NCBI GenBank assembly: GCA_025934335.1 | Contig: JAICYG010000002.1 | Location: 1-42,648 of the forward strand | Length of the DNA: 42,648 nt | Source of the DNA: Thermoleophilia bacterium | GTDB taxonomy: Bacteria; Actinomycetota; Thermoleophilia; Gaiellales; Gaiellaceae | Direction: 5' to 3' | Shown here: one piece after another, positions 13,645-42,496 of the stretch | Layout: each line of letters starts with the position of its first letter | Position numbering within the stretch: the first letter of the stretch is position 1 | Made by a program: the position numbers and the translations under genes | The notes under the pieces: generated by a model | Told to the model about the DNA's origin: nothing | Databases searched by the model: none | Seen by the model: only the letters and a program-made list of their open reading frames with translations

Positions 13645-14365
13645 CGTCCGCGAGGATCTCGCGCCAGCGGGTGAAGAGGAGCTGATGGGTGTCGTCGACG
13701 AGCCGCAGCTCGGCACGCGGCAGGCGCTCGAGATACGCGTCCGCGATCGGCGGCAGGCAGACGCGGTCGCGCTCTCCCCACCAGAGCGTCACCGGCGCCG
13801 TCACCTCGCCGAGCTCGAACCCCCACGGGCGCCCGAGGTACGCGAGCTCGCGCGCGAGCCAGAGGCCGCCGTGGCGGAAGGACTCGGCCCGGCCGCGCGC
13901 GTACGCCTCGTCCGTGGACGCGTGCCCCGTCGGCGGCGTCGGCTTCCTGCCCCACCGCTCGAGCGAGCGCGTTGCGAGGCGCGGCGAGACGCGGGCGACG
14001 CGCATCACCGCGCGCACGTCACGCGCGAGGTGGCGCGTCAGGTCCGGCGGCGGCATCGAGCCGACGAGCGCGACGCGGGTCACCCGCTCCGGCGCGACGG
14101 CCGCGAGCGCGAGCGCGTGCGGCCCGCCCGCCGACCAGCCGACGACGCCGAACCGCTCGACCGGGAGCGCGGCGGCGAGCTCCTCCCCCCACGCCCGCAG
14201 CGAGGGAAGCCGCCGCGCCGGCCCGCAGCGGTCGACCGCGATCAGGCGCACGCCGAGCCCGGCAGCGATCGAGTCGTCGGGGTGACGCGAGAGCCGCGAG
14301 TCGCCCCCACCGTGCAGGTAGACGACCGGCGCCCCCTGCGGGTCGCCGACGTCGTCGAGGCTCAG
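13628..14365 (-). CDS. Alpha/beta hydrolase, probable CTG start
   Basis: About 245 residues. Oxyanion region VVYLHGGGDSR, nucleophile elbow GWSAGG (Ser about residue 78), acid in WWGERDR (about 200) and histidine in DDTHQLL (about 226) give a full Ser-Asp-His triad. No ATG, GTG or TTG lies where the domain should begin. CTG at 14365 forms a CTGA overlap with the stop of the cupredoxin gene, mirroring the ATGA/GTGA junctions elsewhere, and gives (M)SLDDVGDPQGAP. The alternative is ATG 14425, which adds 20 residues read through the cupredoxin 3' end in another frame. Substrate unknown. Last gene of the SelW-DUF1800-DUF1501 operon. Confidence 0.82.
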   Translation of the reverse strand: MSLDDVGDPQGAPVVYLHGGGDSRLSRHPDDSIAAGLGVRLIAVDRCGPARRLPSLRAWGEELAAALPVERFGVVGWSAGGPHALALAAVAPERVTRVALVGSMPPPDLTRHLARDVRAVMRVARVSPRLATRSLERWGRKPTPPTGHASTDEAYARGRAESFRHGGLWLARELAYLGRPWGFELGEVTAPVTLWWGERDRVCLPPIADAYLERLPRAELRLVDDTHQLLFTRWREILADVSAGA

Positions 14366-23084: not shown

Positions 23085-23198
23085 AATCGCCGCAGTTCAC
23101 GTCAGTCCGCCGGACAGTGTCAGGGGGGAGCCGGCACGGGCATCCTCGTCGATCGTCTCGGCTCCGCGCATCAACCAGAAGGGTGATTTGCGCCGGAG

Positions 23199-23289
23199 CG
23201 GAGAAGGAGGGATTCGAACCCTCGAGGCAGGGATTTCCCCACCTAACGCCTTAGCAGGGCGCCGCCTTCAGCCACTCGGCCACTTCTCC
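23199..23289 (-). tRNA. tRNA-Ser (anticodon GCT)
   Basis: 91-base class II tRNA. Acceptor GGAGAAG pairs with CTTCTCC; anticodon loop CTGCTAA closed by GCGCC/GGCGT; long variable arm; T arm GGTTCGAATCC. Discriminator G, no encoded CCA. A TACGAT -10 (plus 23300-23305) lies 10 bases upstream, so it has its own promoter. Reads AGC/AGT. Confidence 0.95.
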
Positions 23290-23322
23290 GGGCGCGCGCA
23301 TCGTACCGCAGTGCCCCGGACG

Positions 23323-23350
23323 CGAAAGCCCGCGCGAAGGCGGGCTTTCG
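23323..23350 (-). terminator. Hairpin terminator between two serine tRNAs
   Basis: Perfect 11-bp stem CGAAAGCCCGC / GCGGGCTTTCG with a 6-base loop, directly past the 3' end of tRNA-Ser(GGA). The stem carries the A-tract/U-tract (AAAGCCC...GGGCTTT), so it can act in both directions. Confidence 0.65.
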
Positions 23351-23356
23351 GCGAGG

Positions 23357-23445
23357 CGGAGGGAGAGGGATTTGAACCCTCGACGCACCTTTCGGCACGT
23401 ACGCGATTTCCAGTCGCGCTCCTTAGACCGCTCGGACACCCCTCC
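23357..23445 (-). tRNA. tRNA-Ser (anticodon GGA)
   Basis: 89-base class II tRNA. Acceptor GGAGGGG pairs with TCCCTCC (one G-T); anticodon loop CTGGAAA closed by CGCGA/TCGCG; variable arm with GTGCCGAAAGGTGC. T arm GGTTCAAATCC, discriminator G, no CCA. TAGGAT -10 (plus 23457-23462) lies 11 bases upstream and overlaps the cupin stop codon. Reads TCC/TCT. Confidence 0.95.
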
Positions 23446-23459
23446 GAGCGGAGGCCATC

Positions 23460-23912
23460 CTAGCCTTCGCCGCTTCGCGTCCCCATCGGCTCGACGGACG
23501 CGTTCGCGGGCACGTGCTGCACGGCGACGGTTCCCTCGACGTAGTGCTGCGCAGCGGGCCACGGCGCGAGCACGAGCACGAGCATCGAGTCCTCGAGCGC
23601 TCGGACCGCGTGTCGCTCGCCCGGATCGAAGGTGACGACGGAGCCGCCACCGCACTCCACCGACTCGCCGCTCGCCTCGACGGACACGCGTCCATGGTGG
23701 ACGTGCACGACCGCCCGCTCCCGGACGTGGTGCTCGCCCATCGCCTCGCCGGCGGCGAGCTCGATCACCACGACGCGGCACTCGGGCGCGCTGAAGAGCA
23801 CGCGCGGGATCTGTCCGTCGCGCCGCGGCACGCGCGGAGCATCCGACCCCGGCTCGCGCGGCGTCTGCTTCTCGGTCGACGGAGGCAGCGAGCTCAGGTC
23901 CCAGCGCTTCAC
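23460..23912 (-). CDS. Cupin-domain protein
   Basis: 150 residues. Single cupin barrel: motif 1 GEAMGEHHVRERAVVHVHHG (H-H and E/H metal-type ligands) and motif 2 VVTFDPGERHAVRALED with the conserved His. N-terminus VKRWDLSSLPPSTEKQTPRE. GTG 23912 is preceded by TAGCCT 8 bases upstream, suggesting a leaderless mRNA. Function unknown: small cupins can be metal-dependent enzymes or ligand sensors. It is wedged between two serine tRNA genes on the same strand, and its 3' end overlaps the promoter of tRNA-Ser(GGA). Confidence 0.82.
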   Translation of the reverse strand: MKRWDLSSLPPSTEKQTPREPGSDAPRVPRRDGQIPRVLFSAPECRVVVIELAAGEAMGEHHVRERAVVHVHHGRVSVEASGESVECGGGSVVTFDPGERHAVRALEDSMLVLVLAPWPAAQHYVEGTVAVQHVPANASVEPMGTRSGEG

Positions 23913-23943
23913 GGCCGGGAAGGCTAACGACTCGCACGCGCAC

Positions 23944-23974
23944 AGGTGTCTGACACCAGTGGTGTCAGACACCT
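23944..23974. repeat. Perfect 31-base palindrome
   Basis: Arms AGGTGTCTGACACCA and TGGTGTCAGACACCT flank a single central G with no mismatch. It lies 9 bases past the 3' end of tRNA-Ser(CGA) and upstream of the cupin promoter. As RNA it would form a very stable hairpin; no U-tract follows on either strand, so it is not a standard terminator. No second copy was seen in the window. Confidence 0.85.
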
Positions 23975-23983
23975 CGGACGATA

Positions 23984-24072
23984 CGGAGGGGGAGGGATTT
24001 GAACCCTCGATCCGCCTTGCGACGGATAACGGTTTTCGAGACCGCCGCATTCGACCGCTCTGCCACCCCTCC
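23984..24072 (-). tRNA. tRNA-Ser (anticodon CGA)
   Basis: 89-base class II tRNA. Acceptor GGAGGGG pairs with CCCCTCC; anticodon loop CTCGAAA closed by GCGGT/ACCGT; variable arm around CCGTCGCAAGGCGG. T arm GGTTCAAATCC, discriminator G, no CCA. TACACT -10 (plus 24083-24088) is 10 bases upstream. Reads TCG. Confidence 0.95.
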
Positions 24073-24096
24073 GAGCGGGCGCAGTGTAGCCGTCGC

Positions 24097-24410: not shown

Positions 24411-25298
24411 ATCGAAGTCTCGAACCCCGACAAGGTCTACTTCCCGGCGCGCGGGCTGAGCAAGCGCGATCTCGTCGCGTACTACGCGGGCATCGCGGAC
24501 GCCGTCCTCCCCCACCTCCGGCGCCGGCCGTTCCACATGAAGCGGTACCCGAACGGCGTCGACGGCGAGTTCTTCCACCAGAAGCGGGTGCCGGCGAAGC
24601 ATCCCGACTTCGTCGACGAGGTGTTCGTGCGCTTCCCCAGCGGGCACTCGACGGTCTTCGCGATCGTCGACAACGTCGAGGCGCTCGCGTGGGTGGCGAA
24701 TCTCGGCTGCATCGAGTTGCACACGTGGGCGTCTCGCGTGCCGGAGATCGAACGGCCCGACTACCTGTTGATCGACCTCGACCCGACGACCGACGGCCAG
24801 TGGCCGTTCGTTCGCGAGATCGCGCTCGTCGTTCGCGAGGTGATGGACGAGCTCGAGCTACGGTCGTACCCGAAGACGTCCGGCTCGACGGGGCTGCACG
24901 TGCTGGCGCCGATCCGGCCCGAGCTTGCGTTCCCGGAGGTGCGGCGGTTCGCGAAGGCGCTCGCGCAGGAGGTGGAGCGTCGCATCGACGATCAGGCGGT
25001 CGCGACGACGACGTGGCGCGTCGCCGAGCGAGTCGGCGTGTTCGTCGACTACGGGCAGAACGCGCGCGACCGCACGATCGCCTCCGCCTACTCGGTGCGG
25101 CCGACTCCCGACGCGCGCGTCTCGGCGCCGCTCCGCTGGGACGAGGTGCCGGCCGTGGAGGCCGGGTCGTTCACCATCGAGACGATGCCGGCGCGGCTCG
25201 CGACCGCCGGCGACCCGATGCGCGGGATGTGGCGAAACCCGCCCTCCCTCCGCCGCCGCTTCGCGGCGTTGGGGCTCGATTCCCCATCGGATGCATAA
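24411..25298 (+). CDS. ligD: LigD polymerase-domain protein (NHEJ primase-polymerase), non-ATG start
   Basis: About 295 residues, a stand-alone LigD PolDom of the archaeo-eukaryotic primase superfamily used in non-homologous end joining. Seen: NPDKVYFPARGLSKRDLVAY, KRYPNGVDGEFFHQKR, the metal-binding YLLIDLDPTTDG, KTSGSTGLHVLAP and VDYGQNARDRTIASAYSVRP. The domain requires residues upstream of the first ATG (24537), but the open frame from 24363 has no ATG, GTG or TTG before it. ATC at 24411 lies 6 bases after GATACT, so a leaderless message starting on AUC is the best reading; start confidence is low. The ligase partner is at 27762-28784; no ku gene is in the window. Confidence 0.85.
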   Translation: MEVSNPDKVYFPARGLSKRDLVAYYAGIADAVLPHLRRRPFHMKRYPNGVDGEFFHQKRVPAKHPDFVDEVFVRFPSGHSTVFAIVDNVEALAWVANLGCIELHTWASRVPEIERPDYLLIDLDPTTDGQWPFVREIALVVREVMDELELRSYPKTSGSTGLHVLAPIRPELAFPEVRRFAKALAQEVERRIDDQAVATTTWRVAERVGVFVDYGQNARDRTIASAYSVRPTPDARVSAPLRWDEVPAVEAGSFTIETMPARLATAGDPMRGMWRNPPSLRRRFAALGLDSPSDA

Positions 25299-33202: not shown

Positions 33203-34090
33203 TCAGTTCGCCCGGCACTGGCGGTCGCCGAGCTGAGCGATCGCGTCGTTCGCGACCAGGTCGGCGGCCTTGTCGTACGCGCCGGGCGCGAGGCCCTCCC
33301 ACATCACGTCCGGCGTGACGCCCGGGCCCTCGACGGTGGCGCGGTACCTGGCGCCCTTCCCCGCGGGGTGGCCGCCGTGGGGATTGACGCTGTAGCAGAA
33401 GACACCCGTGCCGGTGTGGGTGAGGAAGCTGTTCTCGCGCTTCCAGCCGTTGCCGTACGCGGAGTCGAAGGTGTCGACGTAGATGTTGCGCCCGAACGAG
33501 TCGAGCGGGTTTCCGCCTGACGTCGCCTTGAAACCGTAGACGGGGCTGCCGTCGTAGGTGAAGGTGCCGAAGAGGTGATCCCACTGGTGCCACGCCCAGT
33601 CGGTCGATACCTGAAGCACCGGCAGGTCGCCCGTCCAGTGCGAGAGCCGGAGCTCCCACACCGCCTGCGTGGCCGACGGCGCGAGGCCGTAGTTCGGCAG
33701 CATCCGCTGCCACGACTGCAGCGCCCAGTGAGAGCCGTCCGGCGCCGTGCACGCCGTCACGTACCACGCGAGCTTCGGGCCGGTGTACGCGCCGCAAGCG
33801 TTCTTGAACGTCTTCCAGTAGGTCGTGTGGTACTTGCCCCAGCCGCCGGCGTAGTCGAGCTTGAGAACCAGCTGCGGGCGTGACCGCGTCGGTGCGATCG
33901 CGTTCACCGCTCCCCAGGCCAGCACGTGCTTGGCCGTGCCGTGCACGGTGTACGTGACGAGCGCCTCGCCCTTCGCGTTCACCTCGAGCTTGATGCCCTT
34001 GGCGTTGCGGTCGACGAGCTGCGACGCGCTCGCGCTCGAAGCGAGGACGGCGGCGAGGACGACGGCGAGCAGGTAAGGAAGACGGGACAA
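33203..34090 (-). CDS. Secreted tryptophan-rich protein, hypothetical
   Basis: About 295 residues. A signal peptide LSRLPYLLAVVLAAVLASSA starts at TTG 34090, which has GGAGG 8 bases upstream; ATG 34144 would add an 18-residue hydrophilic stretch before the signal and is less likely. The mature protein has many Trp and Tyr (KYHTTYWKTFKNACGAY, WELRLSHWTGDLPVLQVSTD, WAWHQWDHLFGTFTYDG) and several cysteines that could form disulfides. No family recognised. Probably an exported or cell-surface protein. Confidence 0.7.
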   Translation of the reverse strand: MSRLPYLLAVVLAAVLASSASASQLVDRNAKGIKLEVNAKGEALVTYTVHGTAKHVLAWGAVNAIAPTRSRPQLVLKLDYAGGWGKYHTTYWKTFKNACGAYTGPKLAWYVTACTAPDGSHWALQSWQRMLPNYGLAPSATQAVWELRLSHWTGDLPVLQVSTDWAWHQWDHLFGTFTYDGSPVYGFKATSGGNPLDSFGRNIYVDTFDSAYGNGWKRENSFLTHTGTGVFCYSVNPHGGHPAGKGARYRATVEGPGVTPDVMWEGLAPGAYDKAADLVANDAIAQLGDRQCRAN

Positions 34091-39762: not shown

Positions 39763-39822
39763 GCTCGCGACTGTTGATCAGTCGGCCGCACGATCGCAGC
39801 CGTCGATGAGAGGCCGATGAGG

Positions 39823-39909
39823 CGGCGGGGGTGGGATTCGAACCCACGGAGCCCTCGCGGGCTCAACGACTTTCAAGGCCGCCCTATTCGACCGCTCTAG
39901 CACCCCGCC
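39823..39909 (-). tRNA. tRNA-Ser (anticodon TGA)
   Basis: 87-base class II tRNA. Acceptor GGCGGGG pairs with CCCCGCC; anticodon loop CTTGAAA; variable arm GAGCCCGCGAGGGCTC; T arm GGGTTCGAATCCC; discriminator G, no CCA. It lies 22 bases past the serS stop on the same strand; TTACAA in that gap is a possible -10. Reads TCA (and other TCN). Shares its strand with the enzyme that charges it. Confidence 0.95.
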
Positions 39910-39931: not shown

Positions 39932-41167
39932 TCAGTCGCCGGTCGACGCCGGCTCGCCGCCGATCCGGCGCGGAGCCCCGAGCGCGACGAGTGGCCCGGG
40001 CACCGTGACGGAGCCGTCCCCGTCCTGGAAGTTCTCGAGGATCGCGAGCGCCATCCGGTCGACGACGGCGGTGCCGTTCAGCGTGTGCACCGGCTCGAGC
40101 GCCTTGCCGTCGCGGTAGCGGATGCCGAGGCGGCGCGCCTGGAAGTCGGTCGTGTTCGAGATCGACGCCGTCTCGCGGTAGCGGCCCTGGCTTGGGAACC
40201 AGATCTCGACGTCGTACGTCTTCGCCGAAGCCGCCGACATGTCGCCGGCCGGGAGCACCACGACGCGGTACGGAAGCCCGAGGTCGCGTACGAGCTCCTC
40301 CGTGTTCGCAAGCAAACGCTCGTGCTCGTCCCACGACGCCTCGGGCAAGGTCAGCGCGAACTGCTCGACCTTGTTGAACTGGTGCACGCGGATCATCCCG
40401 CGCGTGTCGCGACCGGCCGCGCCCGCCTCGCGCCGGAAGCACGGCGAGAAGGCGACGTAGCGGAGCGGCAGCTCGTCCCTGTCGATGATCTCGCCGGCGT
40501 GCAGGCCGGCGAGTGGGATCTCGGCGGTTCCCGCGAGGAAGAGATCGTCGCCCGCGAGCTCGTACACGTTCTGCTCGTCGGTCGGGAATGCGCCGGTGCC
40601 GACGAGCGCCTCCGCCCGCACGAGCACCGGCGGGAGCACGGTGACGAAACCCTGCGCGGCGAGCCGGTCGAGCGCGTAGCGGTACAGCGCGAGCGCGAGC
40701 CGGGCGGTGTCGCCGATCCAGTAGCCGAAGCGGGCGCCCGACATGCGCGCGGCCCGGTCCATGTCGAACCGGCCGAGCTCGAGATGCTCCTTCGGGTCGG
40801 CCAGCTCGGGAGGCTCGCCGACACGCCTGAGCTCGCGCGCGTCGTCTTCCGTCGCGCCGTCGGGAACGTCGTCTGCCGGGAGGTTCGGGACGCGAAGCGC
40901 CAACCGGTCGCGGTCTCGCTCGGCCCCGGCCAGCGACGCCTCGACTTGCTGGAGCTCCTCCTTCACACCGCGCAGCTCCTCGAGCTGTTCCGGGCTCGGC
41001 TTCCCCCTGAGCTTCGTGCGGGCGCGCAGCTCGTCGACTCGCGGGACGAGCGCGCGCCAGCGCTCGTCGGCGGCGAGCAACTCGTCGAACGCCTCCGCAG
41101 CGCCCTTGCGGGCGAGCGCGGCGCGGTAGCGGTCCGGGTCGGCGCGCGCTGCCTTCAGGTCGATCAC
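39932..41167 (-). CDS. serS: Seryl-tRNA synthetase
   Basis: 411 residues. N-terminal coiled-coil arm for the long variable arm of tRNA-Ser (EQLEELRGVKEELQQVEASL), then the class II catalytic core: LAGTAEIPLAGLHAGEI, motif 2 FSPCFRREAGAAGRDTRGMI, HQFNKVEQFAL, VEIWFPSQGRYRETASISNT and motif 3 TLNGTAVVDRMALAILENFQ. Charges serine onto tRNA-Ser and also onto tRNA-Sec. GTG 41167 in a GTGA overlap with the HAD gene. Confidence 0.96.
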   Translation of the reverse strand: MIDLKAARADPDRYRAALARKGAAEAFDELLAADERWRALVPRVDELRARTKLRGKPSPEQLEELRGVKEELQQVEASLAGAERDRDRLALRVPNLPADDVPDGATEDDARELRRVGEPPELADPKEHLELGRFDMDRAARMSGARFGYWIGDTARLALALYRYALDRLAAQGFVTVLPPVLVRAEALVGTGAFPTDEQNVYELAGDDLFLAGTAEIPLAGLHAGEIIDRDELPLRYVAFSPCFRREAGAAGRDTRGMIRVHQFNKVEQFALTLPEASWDEHERLLANTEELVRDLGLPYRVVVLPAGDMSAASAKTYDVEIWFPSQGRYRETASISNTTDFQARRLGIRYRDGKALEPVHTLNGTAVVDRMALAILENFQDGDGSVTVPGPLVALGAPRRIGGEPASTGD

Positions 41168-41997
41168 GGCTTCGAGTCTAGAAGCGCCTCGAGCACCTGC
41201 GCCACGCCCTCCTCCTCCGCGGGCGGGCAGACCCATCGTGCGACTGCCTTCACGCGCTCGTGCGCATTCGCGACGGCGACGCCGTAGTCGGGCCACTCCA
41301 CGAGCTCGACGTCGTTCTCGCCGTCCCCGAACGCGACCGTCTGCGCCTTCGTGAAGCCGATGTGCTCGGCGAGGAAGTCCATGCCGGCGCCCTTCGTCAC
41401 GCCTTCCTGCGCGAACTCGAGGAAGTGCGGCAGCGACTTCGAGACGTACGCGCGGCCGGCGAGCCGCTCCTTCATCCGCGGCTCGAGCTCGTCGAGCGCA
41501 GCCGGCTCGCCGACGCAGACGAGCTTCGTCGGCGGCGCGGAGAGCCAGTCGAGCAGAGGGCCGACGACGTGGAACTCGATGCGGTTCAGCCGGGCGTAGG
41601 CGCGCGCGGCCTCGGTGTCGCTCGCCACGTACAGCTCGTCGTCGACGTAGACGTTGGGCGAGTAGCCCTCCTCGCCGACGACCGCGACGATCTCGCGGGC
41701 GAGCTCGAGCGGGATCGGCTCGTGCCGCAGCCAGCGTCCCTCCTCGTCGGTCACGACGGCGCCTTGGTACGCGATCAGCGGCGCCGCGACGCCCGCCGGC
41801 TCGAGCGCCTGCCGCACCGACTTGACCATCCGGCCGGTGACGACGATCACCGGCACGCCCGCGTCGTGCGCACGCCGCATCGCGGCGATCGTGCGCGGAT
41901 GCAGCAGGGTGTCCGTCCAGACGAGCGTTCGGTCGAAGTCGCTCGCGACGACGCGGACGTCGCGGGGGAAGCCGTCGGGAAGCCGGAGCGCGCTCAG
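41164..41997 (-). CDS. Cof-type HAD-IIB phosphatase, probable CTG start
   Basis: About 277 residues. Motif I VVASDFDRTLVWTDTLL (Asp20, Asp22), motif II VIVVTGRM, cap region, motif III lysine in GVTKGAGMDFL and motif IV VAFGDGENDVELV. The first ATG (41880) lies after motif I and would give a dead enzyme. The frame has no ATG, GTG or TTG upstream of motif I; CTG 41997 forms CTGA with the stop of the cytochrome gene, matching the overlaps at other junctions. Sugar- or flavin-phosphate phosphatase; substrate unknown. Confidence 0.86.
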   Translation of the reverse strand: MSALRLPDGFPRDVRVVASDFDRTLVWTDTLLHPRTIAAMRRAHDAGVPVIVVTGRMVKSVRQALEPAGVAAPLIAYQGAVVTDEEGRWLRHEPIPLELAREIVAVVGEEGYSPNVYVDDELYVASDTEAARAYARLNRIEFHVVGPLLDWLSAPPTKLVCVGEPAALDELEPRMKERLAGRAYVSKSLPHFLEFAQEGVTKGAGMDFLAEHIGFTKAQTVAFGDGENDVELVEWPDYGVAVANAHERVKAVARWVCPPAEEEGVAQVLEALLDSKP

Positions 41998-42410
41998 CCG
42001 TTCGCGTTGCCGCCGGTCGCCTTGACGACGTAGGCGGTGACGTCGGCGATCTGCTTGTCGGAGAGCTGCCCCTTGAACGACGGCATGGCTCCGGCGCCCT
42101 TCGTCACGCGCTCGACGGCGAGCGAGAGCGGCGGCTTCGCCTGGTCGAGGTTCGGCCCGACGGTTCCGTGCGCGTTCGCATCGGCGAGCGTGTGGCAGCC
42201 GACGCAGCCGGCGCTCGCGAACACCTGCTTTCCCGCCGTCGCGTCGCCGTTCTTGTACTGCGCGGGGACGGTCGCCTTCTGCTCCTTCGGGAGCGTCCCG
42301 GTCACCTTCGTCGGGAGCGGCGAGACGACCTTCTCCCCCGGCTTCGAGGAGGAGCAGCCCGCTGCCGCCACGAGGACGACGGCGAGGACGAGCGGGAGGA
42401 GTCGGCGCAC
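41994..42410 (-). CDS. Lipoprotein c-type cytochrome
   Basis: 138 residues. Lipobox VAAAGC (Cys19) after LLPLVLAVVLV gives a lipid-anchored extracytoplasmic protein. Class I heme domain: NGDATAGKQVFASAGCVGCH (Cys69, Cys72, His73) and distal Met in GAMPSFKGQL. Highly similar in the heme domain to the cytochrome at 22457-23038. GTG 42410 has TATACA 9 bases upstream. Electron transfer partner unknown. Divergent from htpX. Confidence 0.92.
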   Translation of the reverse strand: MRRLLPLVLAVVLVAAAGCSSSKPGEKVVSPLPTKVTGTLPKEQKATVPAQYKNGDATAGKQVFASAGCVGCHTLADANAHGTVGPNLDQAKPPLSLAVERVTKGAGAMPSFKGQLSDKQIADVTAYVVKATGGNANG

Positions 42411-42496
42411 GAGCGCGAGTGTATACAGCCCTCGAGCTGTTGACGGCGGGTTAAGTGCCCGGCTACACGTGCGGCGGCATCCGTACAATTCCTCGC

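Follow-up and report, generated by a model that had tools for sequence, protein, structure and literature searches.

The question raised by this locus is whether a gene for a Cof-type HAD-IIB hydrolase begins with CUG and, if so, whether this start is a local accident or an inherited feature. The near-cognate starts of bacteria are GUG and UUG, with rare AUU as in infC, and bacterial gene finders usually take only ATG, GTG, and TTG; in structural and evolutionary work, CUG is regarded as a start that bacteria avoid. The gene lies in a 42,648-nt stretch of DNA from a Thermoleophilia bacterium (hereafter, the window), for which a preliminary description had proposed that the hydrolase opens at a CTGA junction.

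The HAD gene occupies positions 41164..41997 of the minus strand (277 codons counted from CTG, plus the stop) and follows a small cytochrome c gene on the same strand (41994..42410; PF13442, 3.3e-11; PF00034, 3e-9), which probably starts at the GTG at 42410, ahead of a lipoprotein-like signal, the longest ORF reaching 42512. The CTG (41997..41995) overlaps the TGA stop of cytochrome c (41996..41994), so that positions 41994-41997 have the NTGA geometry of a 4-nt overlap, with a start codon lying over the upstream stop; the junction emerges from the sequence and frame analysis, and the CTG is kept in relatives. Between an in-frame TAA at 42453 and the HAD stop at 41166..41164, the HAD frame is uninterrupted. 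From that TAA to the ATG at 41880, its first canonical codon, it contains no ATG, GTG, or TTG, a gap that runs to codon 39 of the CTG-started protein, and CTG is the sole near-cognate option. The ATG (41878..41880, minus strand), which opens the listed ORF 41164..41880, lies past motif I (DFDRT), found at residues 20-24 of the protein counted from CTG, and a start there would therefore remove this motif. The preliminary description was thus right about the existence of the junction, about the catalytic DxD that a first-ATG start would cost the enzyme, and about CTG being the only suitable start between the in-frame TAA and motif I.

The TIGR00099 profile matches the CTG-started protein with 163.6 bits (cut-off 137) over residues 16-269 and profile positions 1-256, its position 1 falling on residue 16 and motif I lying inside the match; for Pfam Hydrolase_3 (PF08282; 6.7e-53), profile position 1 corresponds to residue 17. 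It could still be argued that the CTG encodes a Leu within a longer protein, since in some relatives the HAD frame has a canonical codon much farther upstream, or that translation starts at ATG 41880 without motif I, the choice that finders limited to ATG/GTG/TTG would make. However, the upstream frame is a shadow of cytochrome c, with an Arg-rich translation and no start within the window, the LPxxFP stretch between CTG and motif I is kept with synonymous variation in dozens of genomes, and loss of motif I would mean loss of catalytic aspartates conserved in all homologs. We consider both versions of this argument very improbable; very probably, the HAD gene in the window begins at this CUG.

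The preliminary description had also counted a second, independent CTG start in the window, which did not survive examination of the candidates at 24456, 14365, and 33206. The bare CTGA string is not rare, and many chance sites close one ORF and open another. The CTG at 24456 was rejected, since it lies ~15 codons inside the conserved N-terminus of LigD, downstream of a shadow ORF; the CTGA at 33206 (minus strand) has a GTG nine codons downstream. For the alpha/beta hydrolase with a CTGA at 14365 (minus strand), CTG is not needed, as the frame offers a GTG 20 codons farther up; alignments with relatives begin at residues 2-5 of the protein started there, but the stretch thus added overlaps the upstream gene, and we leave the case undecided. 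The LigD primase-polymerase has no ATG, GTG, or TTG ahead of its conserved N-terminus and carries ATC at 24411-24413 (plus strand) in place of the ATG of its close relatives L052 and L053, perhaps as a start codon in its own right, perhaps as a damaged one. The window further contains four tRNA-Ser genes (GCT, GGA, CGA, and TGA) at 23198-24073 and 39821-39909 (-), and tRNA-Ser(TGA) is also located near the HAD gene in genomes G041 and G054.

Across relatives, 80 distinct homologous HAD junctions were read (one search for relatives used an approximate HAD sequence, as a probe only). Within family f1, to which the window belongs, and leaving out genus g11, CTG is present upstream of a conserved LPxxFPRxV motif in 48 of 62 distinct junctions from ~19 genera (kinship ignored), and in 18 of these 48 the whole stretch from the in-frame stop to motif I is free of canonical codons. 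The distance of CTG to motif I varies from -15 to -22 codons, so that the codon does not stand for a Leu at a set position, and the distance to the upstream stop floats as well; the Leu that LPxxFP does conserve is encoded by CTC or CTT in 58 of 60 cases. In four relatives, the CTG comes 0-2 codons after an in-frame stop, following a TAG directly (L009 and L029) or a TAG/TAA by one or two codons (L040 and L043). At this junction, the sister family f2 (L046-L049) has GTGA or ATGA and family f3 mostly GTG, and genus g11 uses ATG, GTG, or TTG. Conserved without a canonical alternative and beyond chance expectation, the HAD CTG is, on this comparison, not a product of chance. The bin that yielded the window (G000) is fragmentary (226 contigs, 2.5 Mb, 70% complete; the window is contig C185) and holds a second HAD copy, 94% identical to the first (L031; contig C40:10113-10934), both of which might suggest a sequencing or assembly error or a decayed gene confined to this bin. 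Yet the same CTG recurs in dozens of independent assemblies, the catalytic motifs are intact, and the second copy, either a paralog or the HAD of a co-binned relative, has CTG too, in a setting unlike that of the window (~ten bases after TAG). The comparative data have already refuted this reading.

CTG is not universal in f1. Neither CTG nor a nearby canonical start is present at 14 of the 62 junctions, which are mostly GTAG in genus g31 (L038, L042, and L179-L185), CTAG in L030, and GTAG in L020, and also include L008, L026, and L191. The CTG is therefore not indispensable at this junction; at these sites, as at the recF of L252 (CTA), either other codons work or some genes are changing. Genomes with neither kind of start (L008, L020, L026, L030, and genus g31) would suit a scheme in which programmed frameshifting or readthrough of the stop joins HAD to cytochrome c in a single polypeptide, so that HAD can do without a start codon and the CTG is a coincidence. 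The frame of cytochrome c relative to HAD, however, is -1 in most relatives, the same after TAG/TAA in L009, L029, L040, and L043, and +1 in L031 and L041; because no single event can serve all three relations, a fixed frameshift fusion is ruled out. The canonical HAD starts of g11, f2, and f3 also speak against a fusion, and frameshifting leaves unexplained a CTG that persists in recF far from the dnaN stop (see below), so that we give the fusion hardly any credence.

The GTAG of most g31 members, the CTAG of L030, and a CTAA at the recF of L252 are also what one would see if ribosomes reinitiated at any codon overlapping or following a stop, CTG being common merely through the C that precedes TGA in 42-53% of genes in the scanned genomes. 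Against such indifference to the start codon, CTG is kept in recF and HAD even where the stop does not overlap; G, the next commonest base before TGA, would give GTG, which does not occur at any of the f1 CTGA-type HAD junctions read; and AUA failed at a comparable Escherichia coli junction (PMC9955659). We regard this alternative as improbable.

The case for a CUG start is stronger in recF than in HAD. The search for RecF gave matches in 98 of 103 f1 genomes, including a few weak ones to other SMC-like proteins. The dnaN-recF junction of genome G030 is a CTGA without a nearby canonical start: recF opens with CTG ATC GTC and has no canonical codon before number 62, past the Walker A motif. Among the 50 recF starts read in f1 (again ignoring kinship), 42 are CTG, 4 GTG, 2 CTT (with an upstream TTG), 1 CTC, and 1 CTA, the last as a CTAA junction in L252. 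Canonical codons are absent between the in-frame stop and codon 24 in 25 of the 42 CTG-start genes. Of the 42 CTGs, 18 share bases with the dnaN stop, and the others lie 4 to ~115 nt downstream of it (190 in one reading); with the stop often well upstream, the recF CTG is independent of overlap. A simple scan detected a Shine-Dalgarno-like motif at 2 of the 50 starts. CTG accounts for 42 of 46 Leu-type codons at the recF start versus 13 of 49 at a nearby Leu column (Fisher p = 7e-11, kinship ignored). In the outgroups read (f2, f3, f4, and other families of the class), no CTG occurs at the aligned recF start, and ATG, GTG, or TTG is found within ~six codons of it, with the nearest upstream one farther away in L288 and L297. 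A RecF tree of 78 sequences recovers f1 as one clade with full support and requires 5 changes between CTG and canonical starts, a number consistent with a single gain on the branch leading to f1, followed by four reversions.

How widely CUG is used was assessed with a home-made codon-score gene caller in ~1.8 Mb from five genomes (four f1 genomes contributing ~1.4 Mb and an f2 control 0.4 Mb). At 4-nt overlaps in the four f1 genomes, the base ahead of TGA is A in 83, C in 58, G in 137, and T in 11 cases. The comparison of CTGA with ATGA and GTGA that the preliminary description had suggested as a check thus gives 58 versus 83 and 137, respectively; for 48 of the 58, though, a canonical start is just a few codons away (often as CTGATG), and of the remaining 10, at least one is an artifact. 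The ten orphans include the HAD genes of G000 and G041 and recF of G030; L201 was rejected as a CTG start, as it lies inside inositol-phosphate synthase. Start-less genes also occur in other junction geometries, and therefore the CTGA count alone proves little and homology decides.

The f2 control genome (G064) has two CTGA junctions with no canonical start nearby. These two orphans, L128:10662-11738 (-) and L137:8887-9537 (+), have a thiohydantoin-desulfurase-like protein and an esterase as products, and CUG starts may, on this evidence, reach beyond f1. Another gene of G030 (L227:14576-16351, plus strand) encodes a secreted-looking protein, whose signal-peptide-like N-terminus starts exactly at the CTG of a CTGA and whose first canonical codon is at 79.

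Within genus g19, mqnE starts at the same codon with CTG in L319, L320, L323, and L324 and with GTG in their close relative L321, and a rimK-like gene has CTG, as CTGA, in 4 of 4 close members read. The proposal that CUG is a regular start in coupled genes of this organism is weakened. CUG starts do recur in this lineage (recF in 42 of 50, mqnE, and the rimK-like gene), but CUG is a minority start, making up ~3% of 4-nt overlaps (2 of 55 in the f2 control), roughly on par with UUG, and is not bound to overlaps. The lack of an alternative start, the conservation of CTG, its floating position, the canonical outgroups, and the interchange with GTG can all be seen in the sequences.

The initiator tRNA and IF3 look ordinary. 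In G054, the initiator tRNA carries the anticodon CAU and the three G-C pairs typical of this molecule; an identical 75-mer occurs in most f1 genomes searched, including g11 with its canonical starts at HAD and recF, and IF3 is present in 38 of 38. Within these two components, no alteration or loss was found in f1, and they gave no sign of a genome-wide change in start decoding through a special initiator tRNA or a missing IF3. A broader version, in which the whole family has relaxed start-codon discrimination and uses CUG, perhaps along with CUA and GUA at stop overlaps, routinely for a set of operon genes including recF, seems to us possible yet doubtful; if true, many f1 genes would be mis-annotated at their 5' ends.

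With a probability of roughly 85%, we favor the reading that the HAD gene is translated from CUG, that this is an inherited family start and not a local accident, that the same holds for recF, and that CUG is a maintained, probably weak start of a few downstream operon genes. Ribosomes that end cytochrome c synthesis at UGA would re-initiate one base back, at CUG, which ordinary fMet-tRNA would read with poor pairing, and the expected outcome is a low HAD-to-cytochrome ratio. The f1 recF would likewise start at CUG after dnaN, also where the genes do not overlap, and CUG initiation would usually be carried out by ribosomes fresh from ending the upstream gene. Selection for low, coupled expression may then keep the codon, a reason for its retention that is reasonable but unproven. 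What we infer goes further than the sequences: that translation does start at CUG, that it is coupled to the upstream gene, and that the codon is retained because expression from it is weak.

Most likely, then, this phosphatase gene and the recF of relatives begin with CUG, a conservation across the family that is more interesting than the finding in the window itself. In the open-access literature, we found CUG starts described neither for recF nor for Thermoleophilia. Finders limited to AUG, GUG, and UUG would miss both starts, and systematic 5' mis-annotation is predicted in this actinobacterial group. Family-wide CUG in the housekeeping gene recF and in a phosphatase gene would demonstrate that this codon can be held in place by selection, and f1 offers a natural system for asking what CUG initiation is good for.

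Among known systems, CUG is a weak start in E. coli, put down to a C-U mismatch at the first position, and is described as a codon that bacteria do not commonly start with (PMC11497404); among ~69,000 reconstructed starts, no more than a handful had switched to CUG, and such switches are very rare in other groups (PMC5622118). Like GUG and UUG, CUG is one base away from AUG and would be read by the initiator tRNA, and near-cognate starts of this kind are often tied to low expression; in family f1, it is kept across the family in recF and HAD. As a Cof-type HAD-IIB phosphatase (TIGR00099/PF08282), the predicted protein matches over its full length, motif I included, and differs from the type in that ~15 additional residues (LPxxFPRxV), which the family conserves, separate the start from motif I. 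In E. coli, genes can be translationally coupled even when no Shine-Dalgarno sequence is present (PMC9955659). The HAD junction shares its geometry with coupled ATGA/GTGA overlaps, f2 having GTGA or ATGA at this very place; it departs from them in that the start is CTG, which in recF persists even without overlap.
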